DNA of 64,000 nt. Source: Linnemannia hyalina (taxonomy: Eukaryota > Mortierellomycota > Mortierellomycetes > Mortierellales > Mortierellaceae). Both the position numbers and the translations under genes were made by a program. The notes beneath the pieces are model-generated. The model searched no databases, was not told where the DNA came from, and saw nothing but the letters and a program-made list of their open reading frames with translations. Shown piece after piece: positions 50,214 through 60,577 of this stretch. Position 1 is the stretch's first letter. Every line of letters begins with the position of its first letter. The stretch lies in assembly GCA_019671135.1 (NCBI GenBank), contig JAHRHY010000001.1, positions 248,001 through 312,000 of the forward strand, given 5' to 3'.

Positions 50214-50978
50214 GAAATATGTCGACTGTCTTAATCAGGAGCGGAGGAAAGAAGAAAAAGAGGCCGAGACTTCTCTGGGCTTTTTTTATAGCCTCTATGT
50301 TATTGTTTTTGTGAGTGTGTGGGCTTGAGTGATAGAATTCAATCGAGTGAGAGAGAGTAGGGGAGTGAGGGTGAAATGAGTCGAGTGAATGGAGTTGAAA
50401 TGGGACTGTAGGAATGAGGGTGTGAATGGAGTGGAGTGGAGTGGAGTGAAAAGTGAAAAGTGAAAAGTGAGATGAAAAGAAAAAGAAGGAAAGCAAGTTT
50501 GTGTTGTGGAATGAAACCTTACGTGTCTTCCTTTCCCTTCAGTGCTTTTGTCTCGTGCGTGTGCTCGAGCTCTGGTCGTTTGGGCCTCTGAAGATATGTC
50601 ATGCTTTGCACACAGTAAGAATGGATCCAACAAGCGTGTTTTCACCCACTCACGTAGCTTGCTCGCTTTAACCAGTTCATCCTGCTTCCCTTGCGACGAC
50701 GCAATGCTTTGCACAGGTAGCGGATACAAATAACAACTATTTTAGTGGCGTAAAACTAACATGGTCCGACCACACCATCATTACCGTTACACGTAACCCT
50801 TCACTCACCATATCCCCTAGTTTGTTTGTGGTGCAAATTTGCACCACATTTTTTTCGATTTATCCAGGTTTCCAATAAAACGGGTTAGAAGACTACATCG
50901 TGGGAGTGTCATTGTCGTCTTCGTCACATTAACCCATTACCTTTTTTTTCTCACACATCGACTTCACCCTACTCGCTC
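50214..50978. other. Intergenic with simple repeats, no gene seen
   Basis: It holds the upstream region of the minus-strand gene. GGAGT (x4) and GTGAAAA (x3) direct repeats lie at about 50426-50470. A 22-bp palindrome follows near the right end. Confidence 0.45.
50827..50848. repeat. Perfect 22-bp palindrome upstream of the piggyBac remnant
   Basis: The half-site TGTGGTGCAAA is followed directly by its reverse complement, with no spacer. It lies about 130 bp before the transposase start and could be a protein-binding site or part of a transposon end. Confidence 0.8.
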
Positions 50979-52471
50979 ATGGACTCCAGTCTCGAGTTCC
51001 TCGGTTCCTTTGACGTTTCTGACTCTCAAGGCACCGTAGTAGCATCTGCGGAGGAGGTTGACGAGGCACAGGAGGAGGAGTTGTTGTTTTCGGTCCGTTG
51101 TCGTACTCGACCAACGCCTGGTACAGATAGCTCTGGGGACGAGGAGGAGGGGAAGGCAGGAGATGAAGGGGTGATAGATGCTCCAGCCCCACCGACAAAG
51201 AAAATGAAGGCTGCCAAGAAGGCTGCTAAGAAGCCCGTTCGTGAGACTAGAGAACTCCCGCCTGTACCAGATTTCGACAATATCTTTCGCTACTACAAGG
51301 ATGGACACCCAGCACAATCCAACCTTCCCCGTGCTCTTCAACTCGACCAAGAACTGGCACCAATAAACATATTCAGCCTATTCTTCAGCGGCAAAGTATT
51401 TTCGGATATGGCCACCTTCACTAACGCATATGCAGCATCAAAAGGAGCCGGCACAGGAGAGGGATTGCGCCAATGGGTAAAGACCACACCTGACGAACTG
51501 CGCATATTCCTCGGCATCATTGTCTACATGGGCGAATTCAGGCAGAACTCTGTCTCAGAGTATTGTTCAACCTTCCCTGAATGTCCTCAACACAACATCA
51601 CTAACTTCATCTCCCTCGTCCGCTTCGAACAACTGAGGCTTTTTTTCATGTCTCCAACCCCAACGAACCTGAGCAACATTGGTTCTCAAAGGTAGAGCCT
51701 GTGATAGATGGGTGCATTTCTCTCTATGAGTTCGCTTCCTTTTCTTTTACTTAACGAAGAGAGTCACCACTCTTGCCCTCTGCTAGCCTATAAAAGCTAG
51801 CTGCGGACAATCGCCCGATCCACCTCAGGTTCTTACCGTGTTCTGGATGGACAATAGACCTGTCTCCATGCTCTTCACCGTCCATGCCCTCAGCCTCGGC
51901 GACAACGACTGATCCGCTGTCTAAGATCGCAGACGCCCTCGAGAGACAAGCGCCAACGCAAAGTCAGTGCGGGATGCTTATAAAGGACATTCCAGGGCGT
52001 TACTCCCCATCCCAAAAATCATCGATGACTACAACCACCACATGAACGGAGTCGACATCGCCGACCAGTTACGCAGCTACTATTCGACTCAGCTCAGGAC
52101 TTATCGCGCATGGGCTCCGATCTTCTTCTGGTTACTGGATACAACAACCATCAACGCGTACCTCATCAACAAACTCTTCGGCTCTTTCATGCATCACAGG
52201 GGGCTCCGACAGTTCCAAGCTAAGGATCTGATGGTGTCCGCCAAATGTCGCGACACCCCTACCCAAGTATCCCCTTATGTCTCGAAAAAATTCAAGGGAC
52301 CAAACGATGAACTACTGAACTGCTCATGACTGGCTCCCATTTCCCCGTCCGAGTCAAGGACCGCCCCTACTGCATCCTGTGCAGATAAAAGAAACGAGAA
52401 GATATAACACAAGCATATCCTCAACCGCCCAGCGAATCTGCTCTCTCTGCAAGGTTCCTCTTTGCACCAAA
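50979..52471 (+). pseudogene. piggyBac-like transposase with central deletion
   Basis: The N-terminal part (50979-51695, 238 codons) has an acidic, Lys/Ala-rich leader and the piggyBac N-terminal domain: LFFSGKVFSDMATFTNAYA, TTPDELRIFLGIIVYMGEF, QHNITNFISLVRFEQLRLFF. A frameshift follows (EQHWFSKVEPV is in another frame). At 51840 the third catalytic block VFWMDNRPVSMLFTVHALS appears, then 51967-52329 gives the C-terminal part PIPKIIDDYNHHMNGVDIAD, RTYRAWAPIFFWLLDTTTIN. A cysteine-rich tail (CILC, then CSLCKVPLC in another frame) follows to 52471. The segment that should hold the first two catalytic Asp is missing. With several frameshifts and stops, this cannot be an active transposase. Confidence 0.75.
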
Positions 52472-52600
52472 AATGATTGAGGAGTATCATACGCGCCATA
52501 GGTTTTAGAATAGATTATCTCAAAGTGAAGTTAGAATTTTAAGGTCCTGTGCCCTCTCCACCTTGCATCGCGTGTTACTGCTACTATTAAATAAAAGAAA

Positions 52601-53134
52601 GATGCCAGCTCTCCAAGTTGTCCATTGTTGCGATGGTCTTCCTGAAATGGATGAAGATGACACAGACGCTGGTGGTGATGCCGGTGCTACTGATGTTGAC
52701 GAGGATGTGGACGACGATGACGCCCTCAAGCGACCCAAGAAGATCATTTTCAAACCGGGTCATATTCAACTCTGCTGGTGATACTTCCTCCGCTTAGCAT
52801 CATCCAAGCGACTCCAGTTCTGCATTCAGGCCAAAATGAGCGATTCTTTCATCGACATCAACGAGAAAGCGTTGGTTGCGCTTCTCTGGGGAAGAAGACA
52901 GTTCAGCTAGACAACGTATAGAAGGACACCCGCTACACTCACAACTGGGCAGCCGCCAAACAGCGTTCTTCGTACGGAGAGGTGATCAAGGAACTATTCA
53001 TCGGGGACCGGGATGCCATCGAGGAAGCCAGGAACAAGCAGCAGACAACATACGGGAAGAGGACAACAACCATGGCTGAGCGTCAGGAGACCTATCCACA
53101 CATCTACGGACAGTTGGAGCTCGCGCGGTATTGA
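52601..53134 (+). pseudogene. Decayed ORF of unknown family between two mobile genes
   Basis: One frame reads MPALQVVHCCDGLPEM, an acidic stretch and RPKKIIFKPGHIQLCW, then a TGA, then YFLRLASSKRLQFCIQ and EKALVALLWGRRQFS, then a TAG. A second frame (52931-53134) reads RYTHNWAAAKQRSSYGEVIK, LFIGDRDAIEEARNKQQTTY and ends YPHIYGQLELARY. The second block has a convincing coding character and a natural stop. I do not recognise the protein. Its place between piggyBac and Fanzor relatives suggests a transposon passenger, but it could be an unrelated gene fragment. Confidence 0.35.
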
Positions 53135-53822
53135 CGAGGAGGGTCATTTTTTTCTGAGAACGGCACAATGCCTCCCTCACGGCCAGTGGGGATCTGAGAG
53201 TTATTGGGTCGTAAAGCTAAAAAGGAGGGTGTACTTGGGCCATGCAAATGGCCTTCTCACAGGAAATGACATATGTGTCACAATCAATGATTGTATCAAG
53301 GGATCAACTAAACCCCTCGCATGACCCTCGTCCTCCAACCCACGTAGGGAGCCGCGAGTCTATCCATGATCAACGATCAAGGACATGACGGCAACACATT
53401 GTCACCCGTAAGGACAGACACATATAAATAAGGCCCCTCTTTCCTCTATTTCTATTTTTTCTTTCTTTACTTACTCCTTCCTTCCTCCTCTCCTACCTCT
53501 TTCCTCCTTTCTCTCCGTCTTTCCTTTCATCACCACCATTATACTATCACAAAGCAAAACAAAATATACACGTACACGCCTTCCTTTTTTCTCCTTTTCA
53601 CTCGTTGCCAACACAAAACGCGTTTTGCTTTTCTTTACCGCCTGTCCGCCCAACCCACCCGCCACCGTCAAGTAAGTTGATGCAAGTTGCGAATGAACGT
53701 GCAAGTCGATGCAGGAAGCCCATGTATGGATCCTAACCATCGTTGTCGTTATTAATTTCCATTAGTCTAGCACGGGCCTCCATTCCTAAGAACACAGCGT
53801 AACATTTCTACATTTTGTCGTG
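53135..53822. other. Upstream region of the XPG-Fanzor gene
   Basis: No ORF with support. It contains a TATA-like box, a long C+T tract (53435-53660) like those before other genes here, and then the start codon. Confidence 0.45.
53423..53430 (+). promoter_or_regulatory. TATA-like box of the XPG-Fanzor gene
   Basis: TATAAATA is followed by a C+T-rich tract, about 390 nt before the ATG at 53823. It is the clearest TATA-type element I saw in the window, but it is based on consensus only. Confidence 0.35.
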
Positions 53823-55543
53823 ATGGGAATCCGTGGCCTTCCCAAAGAGCTGCACGATAGCGAGGGAATACCTGGGGGGTCTTGTAAGGATGCAGGAAAA
53901 TCAACACACGTGGATTTCCTATGCCGCTTCTTCCGCTTGCTACAGGCACGTGCATTCCAAATTCTCCAACAACGCATCAAGGCCGGGTCTGACTCTGCCA
54001 CAATCACGCCTGCCCCAGAGCTGCAGTTAGAGACCTAGGTGCCCGCAAGATCTCGAAAAAGGAAGAACATCGCCGAGCACAACTCAACCCCCAATACCCC
54101 TTCCCTTGATGTCACTATTCCTTTTGATCCCAAACAGACATTAGATGAGCTGATCGAGGACAGTATTGATAGACTCGGCTACAAGAACCTTTTCCTCAAC
54201 CCAGAAGGCCTGTCCCCTGTCGACAAGAAGAATCTGCAGGTAACCTACAATTGTGTTTTTACTCATTCCGTTAGAAGTGAAGTGCTCGCTCGCCTTGATT
54301 CCTCTACCCTTTGTTTTTTTTTTGGGCACATAACTTATTAGACCTTCCGAGCAGTAGGACACGTCCTGGATGATATCCTGTCCAAGGAATTCGACAAAGA
54401 GCTCACCATCATTCATGTGGACGGTTCACCATCAGAGCAGAAGCGAGGAGAACATCGGCAGAGAAACGCGACCCTAAAGCGAGCACTGGACAAGCTACAG
54501 ACGAAGGTCAGCGGTTCAACCCGGTCAACAAAGCAGCTCTTCAAGACCTGCAAGAACAACTACCGCCTACCCCGAGGGAGTCTCGAGCAGGATATCCTTC
54601 CGGTGTTGAGAGAGAAGGGCTGGTGGATCCACCTGTGCCCGTATCAAGCGGATACATGCCTCTCAAGAGTGTGTCAGGACGCCCCAGACCCCGACTCTGT
54701 CATGATCGTCACTTCTGATAGTGATCTAATTGTCTACGAGGGGATCCGCCACATCATGATGCCCGTGGGCAAGACGAGGGAGTTGCAGTTGTTCGACAAG
54801 ACCAAGCTCCTGGACCGTCTAGATCTGCCGTCGGAACAGCACCTTCTCCTTGTCTGTATCGTAACCTCCAACGATTACGTGAAGAATCTTCCGTACTTTG
54901 GGCTTCACAAGAACTGCGACATCATACGAGACTTTGATCTGACAAGCCTAGGGCCGCTGGGAGGATCTGGAGACAACGACCACAGAGCCGAGGCATTGAT
55001 GCCGTTCATTCAAAACTACCTGGACGAAGTTGAGCGTCAACTGGGGAAACTGAAGAAAAGATCGATACAGCAGACTTCTACTCGACACAAGCAACAGGAA
55101 ATCATCCACATTGGCCCGGAATATTATCGCCATGCAATCACCGCATTTTTCGAAAGGATGGAGACGCCTATACAAGAACCGCTGGAGCAGGACGACGAGA
55201 GTCCTCACTCTCACGATATCATTACCATGATACTACAGGAACTGTACTCTCGCAAAAGTCAACAACAGCAGCCTCAGCAACCCAGGAACGACACCCACAC
55301 CTTCACACAGCACCTACCACCAGAGCGAGTCCCGATCAAACTGGCTTCTACCAAGGACATGGGCATGGACACCGATACGAACATCGAATCAGCACCCTCG
55401 TCAACATCCACGCAATATGATTCCAAGACGATCTCCGAATGCACCCGGAAGCGGAAAAGATCCCTGAAACACAAGCAGCAGCGGAAGGATCGATTCAAGG
55501 CTAAGAAGTCAGAAGCCAAACACAAGCAGTGGAGAGAGTCACA
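53823..55543 (+). CDS. FEN1/XPG-like flap nuclease part of an XPG-Fanzor gene
   Basis: Exons 53823-54239 and 54342-55543 (phase-consistent) encode about 540 residues that continue into a Fanzor. The start MGIRGLPKEL is the invariant FEN1/XPG N-terminus. HVDFLCRFFRLL matches the first metal-binding Asp region, IIHVDGSPSEQKRGEHRQR matches FDGxPPxxKxxxxxxR, and GWWIHLCPYQADTCLSRV plus VMIVTSDSDLIVYEG match the XPG-I region. TSNDYVKNLPYFG matches the GCDY helix-hairpin. In the usual EAEA motif only one acidic residue remains (QAD). The end is Gln- and Lys/Arg-rich. Codon 72 (54036-54038) is an in-frame TAG with no good intron to remove it. Apart from this the frame is open, so damage is recent, or the stop is bypassed, or it is an error. 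Flap nucleases cut branched DNA. A role in transposition or repair of Fanzor-made breaks is inference. Confidence 0.75.
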
Positions 55544-55649
55544 GTAAGTTTAGTTACACTTTGAAGATGTTTCAAGTTTCGTTGAATTCCTACGCTTCGT
55601 TGCAAAGTTCATTTTTTATTCATTATTCCCAATACTCCTGTCAACTTAG

Positions 55650-58570
55650 GTTCAAATCAAGGACCGATATTCAGAAGAGGTATTCAGTCAGAACTGTCAA
55701 CATCCACGACGCCCCAAACGTCGATGAGGCTGAGCTTTCCCATATGACTGTGCCTAAGCCTCGCTCCCAGAAACAGTCATCTCCGTATATCAACAACCCG
55801 GTCTCCGACAACAACGCCAAAGATACATCCAAAACAACAAACGGTTCTTCGTCCCAGCAGAAATCCAGCGAAAACTCCCAACAAAAGAAGAAGAAGCGCA
55901 AACCTAGGAAGCGCAAACCTAGGAAGCCGAAGTCTGAAGTTGCACAACTTAAATCCGGATTCTCAAGCACCTTTGCAATTTCAACACAGACGATCGGTAG
56001 TGTTCTGGGGTGCCTACGACGATCACTATTGCCGGCACGAGAGACTGGGCGACTTGCTAAACTCAGCGACGAGGACATCAAGGATATAGCGGTCAGGATC
56101 GACTCGGCAGTGGCGACGATGGCAGAGGCCAGGATGTTTGTTTTTCGAGCAGTAGAGATTATGATCCTTGATCAGCTATTGGGAGGAGAAGGCATTTCGG
56201 GAGCGCTGGATGCTGTCGCTGGCGAGGAGGATGCAGGAGAACCCTTTGACGTGCTTGAGTTACTGTTGGAGAAGGCCGCCGGGACCGCTATTATCAAGCA
56301 TATGTTCTCCCTCATCCTCAACGGAGAGATCGAGCGCGGTCGCCCTAAAACAGTCAAGGAAAAGTCCAAGGCCGCGAAGAACATCTCGAAGGCTGCTTAT
56401 GATCGTCTCCATCAGATCCTGCCAGGATTTCGGCCTGTCAACAAGGACTCCATCTGCGTTGGACGGTTGATTGTTGATGCAGCGGCGGAATTCTCTGTTC
56501 AGCTGAGAAAACATTTTCGGGATTTGCCATTCACCATTGGAGCTAGGGTATGTGTCCATATACGTAGTGCTACATGATCCTTTTAGCCTACACCATTTTT
56601 AAATACTAACTCACAGTCCTTGCTCGACTCTTAAATAGATGTTAAAGTGTGGTTGGAGCGAGATCGACCTGCCAGCTGGATCATTTAAGGAGCAGCCGGG
56701 ATCCCAGACTGTTGGAGCAATTCAACAAACTACAGCGGAGGAGAGGAATGACGATAACGACGAGAAGGACGAGGATGACGACGAAGAGGACGTAGAGGAC
56801 GAGGATGAGGACGAGGGCGACAACGATACCAGCATGCGATTTGCCGGTGGATACATCCGTCACTGGTGGAAAGAGGCCGAACGTCTGCCGCCGGCTATGC
56901 AACCTCTCTTCTGCCTTCGACATAACTTCACCGATCCGTTCATCACATTTGAGGAGCGGGCTCTGCCGCCAATCTTGTGGTCCACGAGCAAGAAGAATCC
57001 GAACCCGTGCGCTGTTGCTGCTTCCAAGATCATGACCGCCAAAGAAGCATCCGCACTCGTCGAATTGACGCATGGGGAATTGATCAGGATCTTATTCTAT
57101 GGAGAACCAGATGAGATCAGGAAGTCACATTCCGTGTGGCAGACATCATACGGGAGACGCTCGACAACTATGGAAGCTCTTGCCAACAATCATCCGGCCA
57201 TCTTTGATCCTAATATCCTTCACTCATACTTGGACAACAAGTTCCGCTTCATCAACTACGCCAGTGACTGTCGAGAGAAAGGGATTGCATGCGACAAGAG
57301 TCCCCCTCCCTTGCCGACAAGTCTCCTCTCACAGGACCCGACCCTATGCCCGCAACGATTCGCGCTCAACAACATCTTTTCGACAAACGGCAAGGAACTC
57401 CATGTCACCTGCTTTGATACCACCAAGCCCTACAGGAGCAAGTTCGCCTTTAACCCTATCTATCGGATCGAAAACAGATTCCCAACACTACAATCAATTC
57501 TGGACGAGTTTGGCGTGTCGTCTATCGAGGAGATTGATGTCTGGGGTATTGACCCCGGTGAGGTCAACACGGCAGCATTTTGTAGGATCTTGCGGACCTA
57601 TCTCACTTCAATTGACACCAATGTGGCGACAGATGATGACGCTGAACCGCAACATCGACGCAACTACCAAGCATCCACCAACAGCATCCTCCCTCCTGGT
57701 CTGGAAGCCAAGAATCTGGTCGTGAGCAGAAAATCGCTTTACCAGCCTGTGTTTGCCCATCGAAATAAAATGCAGGATCTGTCGACAACGAGGATCACCG
57801 TCAGTCCAGGTCAGACGATTGAGGGCAAGTTATGGGCCGAGCAGAAGGACGGGCAAGCGGATGGAGGAACGTCGATTCTGAGTATCAGCGAGATCCTGAA
57901 CGTGCTGCCATCCCGACAATACCAACAAGTTGCAGACATGGAGCAATCCACGTTCCGATTTTTCCTTGTTCAGGATATCTTGCATGGATTCTATGGGTCT
58001 GCAAGAGTGAAAGCCATGGGCTGGGATCTGAAGAAGGCCAAGAAGGCAGAGATGGACCTCGCCATCGATGCCATCCTCAGGGAGTGCACCACCAAGACGC
58101 TATTCTGCTATGGAAATGGGTCCTTCCGTACAGGCATTAACCTCGCATCCCCCATGAGTCCTTCAAGGCGGTCTTTGCGCAAAAGGTAACGGGTTTTTCT
58201 GTATTTCCTGTTAGTTGTATTTGTCCGATACAGAAAAAACAAATACTGATCATATTCATTTTGTTCATTTTTATGAAAATAGGCTGTTGCTGCTGGGCAC
58301 ATCGTGGTGTTGGTCGATGAATACCTCACTTCAAGCATTTGTCCCACCTGCCTCGAGTCGAACGAGGTATCCCGTCTCGCCAAGCCTACCACGAGGTCAT
58401 GCGTGTGCTTGACATGCGGAAGGTGGCTCCACCGCGATATTGTTGGAGCACACAACATTGCCGCTGCAGGCGAGGTTTGGATGCGGACCTTGACAAGGCC
58501 GACGCCTTTGAGTCGCAAGAGCCCAAGTGAACAGTCTGCATGGTCCCCAGACCTCCATAATTCGAACTAG
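55650..58570 (+). CDS. Fanzor (eukaryotic TnpB-like RNA-guided nuclease) part of an XPG-Fanzor gene
   Basis: Exons 55650-56547, 56639-58185 and 58283-58570 follow the nuclease part through a 106-nt GTAAGT...TTAG intron. N-terminal: a strong basic NLS (KKKKRKPRKRKPRKPKS). Then come a helical region, a very acidic stretch (56750-56825) and the catalytic fold: RuvC-I DVWGIDPGEVNTAAF (Asp codon 57551), FCYGNGSF, then VVLVDEYLTSSICPTC (Glu codon 58319), then SCVCLTCGRWLHRDIVGAHN (RuvC-III Asp codon 58436). The zinc ribbon is C-x2-C-x16-C-x-C-x2-C. VDEYxTS with Glu there, and not in the canonical RuvC-II position, is the Fanzor arrangement described in the literature. Exon 56639-58185 is one base short: frame is lost at a run of five C (about 58149-58153), and a sixth C would restore agreement with the last exon. 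Separate translation of this part from an ATG at 55567 is an alternative model. Confidence 0.85.
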
Positions 58571-58826
58571 ACTGGTTACCTGCGCCGAAAACGCAGTCAC
58601 CATTATCCCAGCGTTGTCCATTATTGACAGCCGAAGGGATATTGCACTAAATCAAAGCGGAAATAGAGGATGTGCAGCCCTCCCACTCGGCAATAGTAAT
58701 AGCGCTCTATCCTGCAGCCCCCTAGTAGGGTGCGCGAATGACTCGCCGCCGATCGTCAACGGCTCACCATAAAATATCGCCTTTCCTCTCCGCCGCCAAA
58801 AGCAGCGGGGACCAACACCCATTGCT
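58571..58826. other. 3' flank of the Fanzor, candidate guide-RNA (omega RNA) region
   Basis: No ORF is supported. Short inverted repeats such as GCCGATCGTCAACGGC (58748-58763) are seen. In known Fanzor and TnpB loci the guide RNA scaffold comes from the 3' end of the gene and its flank, so this is where to look. The sequence itself does not prove an RNA. Confidence 0.25.
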
Positions 58827-59405: not shown

Positions 59406-59930
59406 AGGGGAGGGGATATCATATCTTTTTATGACATATCTCTTCTTTTTGAATGCCGAAGCAGGCCCGCACAGCGTACAAGAAAAGGGATAACGGAGAA
59501 CTAACAGGGTTGTTTGAAATAAGAGAAAAAAATCATTAAAAAACGGTTGGGAGCAAAGAGAAGGTCAAGAATGAGCATGCACAGCACAGGCAAGTTAGCG
59601 GTCTGGTGTCTTCCTCCCTCTTCCTCCTATCTTTCCTCTTCAAGCATCAGAGTATTTCAAACGAGAATGGAAGAGACAAGGGAAGGGAGTGTAATGGGTA
59701 TGGAATCGAAAATTGCAAAGAACAAGACAAAAGGGTGGCCAGACACTCTCAATGCTTAAGGAAAGACGTAACCGGTTCGGTTAGAAGAAAAAATACGCAA
59801 TTGTTAGCAACAGGGAAAACAAAGACAGCAAACACGTAGTACACAACGCCGCCCAATGTCCTCGCAACTTTCAACGAAACAAAAAAAGTCATGAACTCGT
59901 CAATTTGTTCCCAGGTCATCTCTGTTGCCA
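59142..59930. other. Intergenic, no gene seen
   Basis: Mostly purine-rich on the plus strand. It contains an (AG)16 microsatellite at 59369-59401. Confidence 0.45.
59369..59401. repeat. (AG)16 microsatellite
   Basis: A perfect dinucleotide run, the second of this type and length in the window (the other is at 18843-18874). Confidence 0.9.
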
Positions 59931-60201
59931 ACCGACAATGATTTCACCCATCTCTCTCACGACATGGCTTCTACGGAGGCCACCCACTCTTCATTCACTC
60001 ATTCATCACAGGTGCCGCGAAGAAGTCGTTTCCTGATAACGAAGGAATAAGTTGAAGGAGGGTGTCAGTGACAACCAGTTGTTGAATCCTGGGAGGGTCG
60101 ATGGCTGTTGGAGGGAGGGTAAGTGATGAATGAGTGAATGAAGAGTGGGTGGCCTCCGTAGAAGCCATGTCGTGAGAGAGATGGGTGAAATCATTGTCGG
60201 T
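59931..60201. repeat. Perfect 79-bp inverted repeat with 113-bp loop
   Basis: The left arm 59931-60009 is the exact reverse complement of the right arm 60123-60201. The arms begin ACCGACAATGATTTCACC and end CATTCATCAC. Identity stops sharply at both ends, and there is no target-site duplication or terminal motif typical of a transposon. A transcript through it would fold into a 79-bp hairpin. Confidence 0.95.
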
Positions 60202-60224
60202 AGGGTGAATGTCGCTCATAGGGG
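59995..60224 (-). CDS. Small hypothetical ORF overlapping the inverted repeat
   Basis: The frame MSDIHPTDNDFTHLSHDM ... IDPPRIQQLVVTDTLLQLIP ... NDFFAAPVMNE (about 75 residues) starts at an ATG and runs through the right repeat arm and loop. The loop part has an amphipathic, coding-like pattern. No family or signal peptide is recognised. It may be a fragment of a former gene. Confidence 0.25.
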
Positions 60225-60577
60225 CTCTCGTATTACGGATGTGTTCCTGTGAGTGACGAAAAGGGCCTTTATTATTTCTTTTTAAAAAAGAGCCACACAT
60301 ATGTCCATGGCACCTATGACAATACAAGTAGTCCGTCCTTTGTAGGACACTTGTTGATCAAACTCCCCATCCATCTGTTCAAGACAAGAAAAGTATGTTT
60401 ATTATCTGGCCCGATGATAGGGTGGTCGTAAATCTGTCCATTGAATGCCATAGGCTTGGAGTCCTCCGGATAGTATCGAGTACCTAACAGTGTTTGTTTC
60501 TTGAGTTCCTCGGCAGTGGTGGCAGGAGGGGCAGAAGGGGAAGGGAACAGCGACCAAGACCGGGTCCTAGACGTCAG

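Follow-up and report, generated by a model that had tools for sequence, protein, structure and literature searches.

A predicted fusion of an N-terminal EXO1/FEN1/XPG-type nuclease with a Fanzor1 nuclease in mobile elements of Linnemannia hyalina and related Mortierellaceae

A stretch of 64,000 nucleotides from the genome of the soil fungus Linnemannia hyalina (contig 1, positions 248001-312000; hereafter the window, in which positions are counted from its first letter) contains a gene that joins the motifs of a 5' nuclease to those of a Fanzor. From sequence, gene structure and fold we conclude, with little doubt, that genes of this kind encode one mobile-element protein, consisting of an N-terminal EXO1/FEN1/XPG-type 5' nuclease followed by Fanzor1. 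The genome analysed comprises 51.5 Mb in 50 contigs; its published description reports a PacBio assembly of 51.6 Mb with Funannotate annotation and names RNA-seq only as a further experiment (PMC8444964). An earlier, sequence-only reading of the window had proposed a single XPG-Fanzor fusion gene at this locus. Its architecture is supported by the co-occurrence of the two parts, a conserved junction intron, database gene models, a single-frame example, similar trees of the two halves and fold comparisons, while the copy at the locus itself, with an in-frame TAG and a frame shift, is a pseudogene, and the case for the fusion rests on its relatives.

The gene occupies five exons on the forward strand. 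Exon 1 (53823-54239) begins with MGIRGLP, the start of an XPG/EXO1/FEN1-type nuclease according to the translated gene model, and is followed by intron 1 (54240-54341; GTAACC..TATTAG, phase 0). Exon 2 (54342-55543) encodes the XPG nuclease core with HVDG, QAD, TSDSD and TSNDY and a basic tail, as identified by motif, profile and fold matches. The junction intron, intron 2 (55544-55649; GTAAGT..ACTTAG, 106 nt, phase 2), leads into exon 3 (55650-56547), which carries an FKSRTD block, a basic linker and the N-terminal Fanzor part. After intron 3 (56548-56638; GTATGT..AAATAG, phase 0), exon 4 (56639-58185) continues the Fanzor with RuvC-I GIDPG (Asp codon at 57551), and beyond intron 4 (58186-58282; GTAACG..AAATAG) exon 5 (58283-58570) ends the gene with VDEYLTS, a C4 zinc ribbon (Pfam PF07282, E 5.4e-9) and HRD. 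The motifs named in the sequence-only reading were all recovered: MGIRGL at 53823, HVDGSPSEQKR, TSDSDLIVYEG and TSNDYVKN in exon 2, GIDPG in exon 4, and VDEYLTSSICPTC with CVCLTCG-x3-HRD in exon 5. The 106-nt consensus intron is likewise present in the DNA, with its place and phase kept in relatives. Additional to that reading are the TAG, the frame shift, three further introns and a transposon setting with ends at 50811 and 58641.

The TAG lies in exon 1 (54036-54038), and the frame shift, judged against sibling copies, near 58150 in exon 4. Siblings on contigs 5 and 23 share 98% DNA identity with the window copy and are open at the TAG, with other lesions present. Uninterrupted five-exon models were obtained for the copies C1_1460k and C23_187k (1467 and 1368 aa, intron phases 0, 2, 0, 0), and a third protein (C33), reassembled from hand-set exons, has 1317 aa and no stop. 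The deposited model of the window gene, KI688_000070 (P0003), has an identical junction splice; it bypasses the TAG-bearing stretch, and its C-terminus deviates from those of relatives. In our constrained gene-model run, the program picked the conserved F[KR].RTD acceptor for six copies (window, C5, C23_2623k, C1_1460k, C23_187k and C11) and a different one for C33, C8, C1_3553k and C6_27k, where the conserved acceptor was assigned by eye. The program paths contained false introns around the lesions in the window, C5 and C23_2623k and omitted the zinc-ribbon exon in C1_3553k, C33, C8 and C11.

The junction was compared in six families (window/C5, C1_1460k, C1_3553k, C23_187k, C33/C11 and C6_27k), the XPG parts of the other five being 33-44% identical to that of the window. 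In all six, the exon before the junction ends in W..S. or W..T., the next starts with F[KR][SR]RTD, and a phase-2 intron lies between them. The same residues are joined in deposited proteins from Dissophora ornata, Mortierella alpina and M. antarctica. On contig 23, one lineage appears to dispense with the separation: XPG motifs (GEAD, SGDSD, SRNDY) from 1,074,474 and Fanzor motifs (TNG, MDPG) 2.2 kb further on (1,076,700-1,077,599) are in the same phase, each reported in a stop-free open frame of 1398 codons, with 601 and 901 bases read and the stretch between resting on the reported frame length; another set of open-frame values, which disagreed for the same places, was not used. Profile comparison aligned the two pieces with XPG (E 8.8e-15) and Fanzor (E 4.9e-8), and a zinc ribbon lies downstream of this unit at 1,077,937.

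These observations bear directly on the alternative that two neighbouring genes were wrongly joined across an intron, as might be suspected from an automatic (Funannotate) annotation, from the ATG with which exon 4 begins in several clade A families, and from the 11 of 34 database models that end before RuvC, some of them labelled partial. That ATG is missing from C6_27k, P0004 and clade B, however, and the splice donor itself creates the first stop in five of the six families (in C6_27k the frame continues into the intron), with conserved residues flanking the intron. Given the conserved junction, the single-frame lineage and the similar trees of the two halves described below, we rejected the two-gene reading as very improbable.

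Among the 34 database relatives searched for chains with both domains, pattern matching found XPG DSD..ND together with RuvC-I in 16, representing ten species by name, and Fanzor motifs without the XPG pattern in 7, several of which begin inside the XPG part. The precomputed annotations of proteins from Podila verticillata (P0009) and Linnemannia gamsii (P0010) contain both Pfam domains; among the relatives examined, the domains are not confined to separate genes. A profile search of the protein database returned at least four proteins among the matches listed, all of which bear names of Mortierellaceae genera. The two halves give trees with an identical two-clade split and a similar order within clades. 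The distances of the halves correlate with r 0.94 across 14 proteins (a value reached in 0 of 5000 permutations), and within clades with 0.72 in clade A (n=5; 123 of 5000) and 0.78 in clade B (n=9; 5 of 5000). This comparison used 14 of 16 proteins, C33_1359k and P0013 being dropped when the RuvC-I pattern missed both.

The linkage of the two parts was also visible genome-wide. With the window sequence as query, 71 XPG matches merged into 68 places. In 59 of them a same-strand zinc ribbon follows within 8 kb, at distances of 0.8-3.9 kb. With a further query from the divergent clade the number of XPG-like places rose to 85, of which 62 are followed on the same strand by a Fanzor zinc ribbon within 6 kb. 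This tally drew on the 68 merged places, on 58 of 92 rows of a second search (the other 34 being repeat matches to known places) and on 46 of 102 rows of a third. At least 7 of the remainder have the Fanzor RuvC exon only, and at most 16 have neither, some of which may be fragments or adjoin unlisted exons. Conversely, an upstream XPG part was found for 62 of at least 91 zinc ribbons and is lacking at 29. Chance adjacency was rejected, as the 62 of 85 observed compare with an expectation of about 0.005 per place. In family F2, which has open copies, both halves are under purifying selection: among eight copies (28 non-independent pairs) the ratio of nonsynonymous to synonymous differences (pN/pS) was 0.37 in the XPG exon and 0.23 in the exon with RuvC, and both halves were therefore kept while the family spread.

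Fold comparisons of the two halves, as the earlier reading had proposed, back their assignment. The N-terminal core has the XPG/FEN1/EXO1-type fold, and its fold and profile matches go to the DNA nucleases EXO1, FEN1 and XPG/Rad2. On rescanning, the Pfam XPG_I scores were 12.5 bits for the window, 23.5 for P0009 and 28.1 for P0010, with a cut-off of 24.9. Six of seven acidic metal-site positions are conserved in alignment A2; in the numbering that we take to apply, the ungapped rows retain D31 (19/20), D166 (27/27), D244 (28/28), D266 (27/28), D268 (28/28) and D318 (28/29), together with K173 and R180, two basic residues seven apart (27/27). In every row of the window's clade (8 of 28), the first Glu of E-A-[DE] (the column of P0001 residue 242) is replaced by Gln; the other 20 rows have Glu. 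The protein thus differs from EXO1, FEN1 and XPG-Rad2 nucleases in being transposon-borne and fused to an RNA-guided nuclease, and in the window's clade by this substitution. Mkt1- and Asteroid-like proteins use XPG-type domains as binders with weak or no catalysis, and the loss of one Glu ligand would fit a fused domain that mainly binds branched DNA or partners in the same way. We consider this doubtful, since the remaining acidic residues and the two basic ones hardly vary, clade B has the Glu, and purifying selection was seen in F2.

The fold of the C-terminal half is nearer to Fanzor1 than to other Cas12-type folds, and its zinc ribbon is that of PF07282. The Fanzor1 C-terminal motif, given in the accessible portion of PMC3627910 as D-X(125,275)-[TS][TS]-X-X-C4 zinc finger-X(5,50)-RD, is present, with D-to-TS gaps of 235 in P0004, 223 in C1_1460k, 201 in both C23_187k and C6_27k and about 226 in the window. 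The TDG motif placed in the WED domain of Fanzor1 (PMC10711439, accessible part) occurs in C23_187k, C6_27k and many clade B proteins; the window gene and C1_1460k have TNG in its place. In contrast to the Fanzor1 proteins SpuFz1, GtFz1 and PpFz1, the present protein has about 700 extra N-terminal residues with the EXO1/FEN1-type nuclease; the accessible portions of PMC11423790, PMC10432273 and PMC10711439 mention no such nuclease for Fanzor1. RNA-guided DNA cleavage would be the expected activity of this half on account of its membership in Fanzor1.

As is typical of Fanzor1, the gene is carried by a eukaryotic DNA transposon with inverted ends and a PF13843 transposase. The whole element, delimited by repeated copy boundaries, measures 7,831 bp (50811-58641, forward strand, ends TATCCC...GGGATA). 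Ten copies of its left part begin exactly at 50811, where the left terminal TATCCC lies (50811-50816), and five more at 50807-50809; the right boundary, 58641, is common to both sibling copies. It contains a degraded DDE transposase in two forward-strand parts, N-terminal (50889-51695, E 1.5e-13) and C-terminal (51967-52326, E 3.7e-7), and a fragment of a second, C6-type Fanzor (52602-53203, forward strand, 91-92% DNA identity to C6-type Fanzor exons). Contigs 5, 12 and 23 carry stretches 95-96% identical to the left part, and positions 50811-52510 and 52602-53203 share 88-91% DNA identity with C6-type elements; the window element is therefore a chimera of two Fanzor transposons.

Other families have comparable boundaries. 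In F1, a sharp stop after GGGATA was seen in 9 of 9 printed copies with nine different flanks; in F2, the GGGATA stop was found in 3 of 9 copies (the search key gave no match in the remaining 6), and all eight F2 alignments end at the same place. In the contig 8 F2 copy, 15 of 16 bases of the left TATCCCTTCAACCGTT agree with the right end when the latter is reverse-complemented, and the upstream PF13843 transposase has 333 open codons (E 2.8e-44). The DDE_Tnp_1_7 (PF13843) transposase is that of piggyBac elements, which duplicate a TTAA target; the flanks of the window and C8 elements are not TTAA, and the nine F1 right flanks have no common tetranucleotide, so that only the name PF13843 inverted-repeat element is used here. 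DNA resembling this transposase precedes 12 C6-type copies, 7 F2 copies and C1_1460k, which would fit a fused nuclease that assists the transposase by trimming ends or gaps when the transposon excises or inserts. We regard this as quite improbable: the fusion partner is Fanzor rather than the transposase, and a DNA search, which would miss diverged transposases, found no such DNA preceding the copies of F1 or clade B.

The right end folds like the end of an omegaRNA, with modest support. A first 3' hairpin with a 5-bp stem and 7-nt loop (58580-58596, forward strand), assigned to the presumed omegaRNA, recurs in 6 of 6 right ends tested, at 34-47 nt from the terminus (5-10% of shuffles each); its stem letters differ between most families, and the differences between the window and C48 are paired changes. 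Stems were compared by script, since alignment A4 set this hairpin one column off between families. The terminal TATCCC..GGGATA stem-loop (58604-58641, forward strand) reaches the right end; a TATCC..GGATA stem closes the best fold in 5 of 7 right ends, not in F1 and F2. The fusion transcript and the presumed omegaRNA overlap at the end of the former, and P0001 has a weak XRN_N match (E 0.013, below the cut-off). Both would suit a fused domain acting on RNA, trimming the 5' side of the transcript to the mature omegaRNA like the XRN 5'-3' exoribonucleases of the wider superfamily. This role is unlikely in our judgement: the matches described above are to DNA nucleases and, to our knowledge, the TnpB and Fanzor relatives studied need no such partner.

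Several further repeats were recorded. A second right-end signature, TTCGGTGACGTA then GCGCCCATT, lies downstream of the stop in clade B loci L069, L070, L071 and L072, and a similar stretch follows the GGGATA of the C6_27k element. Head-to-tail XPG-Fanzor pairs occur on contig 17 (100787-109620) and contig 4 (1735473-1750527), as if elements insert side by side. In the window, an inverted pair of about 82 bp and 99% identity (59928-60009 and 60123-60204) lies inside a 255-bp stretch that looks like a small hairpin element and has relatives on contigs 5, 13 and 26, and a repeat of about 65-80 bp (~60281-60366) recurs at more than 20 other genome places in both orientations. As to a viral source, one scan of viral contigs with a single peptide pattern matched 13 times without yielding a relative, which speaks only weakly for absence.

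The analysis shows a single chain with two nuclease folds and conserved active-site residues in a mobile setting. The best explanation, advanced as possible rather than probable, is a cut by Fanzor at a guide-matched site, after which the fused nuclease would resect the 5' ends toward homologous repair. An omegaRNA from the right end of the element would carry flanking DNA as guide, and Fanzor would cleave the matching site where the element is lacking, on the sister, on the homologue or after excision. The tethered nuclease might then digest the 5' strands at the break or remove 5' flaps, and homologous recombination from the element-bearing chromosome would restore or spread the element, with ordinary movement left to the DDE transposase. 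RNA guidance is inferred from the place of the protein in Fanzor1, the likeness to EXO1/FEN1 suggests resection of 5' strands or removal of flaps, and homing by homologous repair follows models of TnpB. The scheme fits the earlier proposal that cleavage would be coupled to end processing, here narrowed to 5' resection.

A number of points weigh against the fusion or its proposed action. The window copy is broken, and its dN/dS against siblings is near 1 on 9-10 changes; taken by half, the ratio (1.0-1.2 for XPG, about 0.6 for Fanzor, from 9-18 changes) says little; the truncated database models count here too, and our knowledge of the fusion comes from DNA, gene models and fold comparisons. 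The Glu-to-Gln change may alter the nuclease chemistry of the window's clade, fold z-scores of the right-end RNA are modest (-1.0 to -3.3), and the homing step is carried over from TnpB.

Each half belongs to a known family, and the join is new as far as literature searches reach. In agreement with the sequence-only reading, which knew of no such fusion, the literature searched, with most subscription papers outside its coverage, contained no Fanzor1 with an N-terminal EXO1/FEN1-type nuclease and no paper pairing Fanzor with XPG or with Mortierell-. T5 exonuclease is a FEN-family enzyme. According to the accessible text of PMC11471210, fusions of T5 exonuclease to FnCas12a and other exonuclease-Cas fusions have been engineered, and T5 exonuclease-Cas12a raises editing, so the combination of cutter and exonuclease is workable. 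They share the layout of an exonuclease with a Cas12-type RNA-guided nuclease but are made by hand, whereas the Mortierellaceae fusion is natural, diverged and kept by selection; the latter offers ready-made architectures to genome editors, who assemble comparable fusions themselves (PMC11471210, same portion). Elements pairing Fanzor1 with accessory nucleases (mariner PGv-1 and others) likewise combine Fanzor1 and a transposase in one element, and there, unlike in the present fusion, a GIY-YIG nuclease is encoded beside Fanzor1 as a separate protein (PMC3627910, accessible portion); Mortierella does not occur in that text.

In this lineage of Fanzors, a 5' structure-specific nuclease has been kept on the same chain through deep divergence. 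Its retention suggests that a step after the cut, resection or flap removal, belongs to the function. It is conceivable, if a little less so than the scheme above, that the fusion is a natural cut-and-resect homing machine, which would find the empty site by RNA, cut it, perform its own 5' resection and force repair from the element-bearing copy. If true, these elements would constitute an RNA-programmed selfish drive with a built-in choice of repair pathway.

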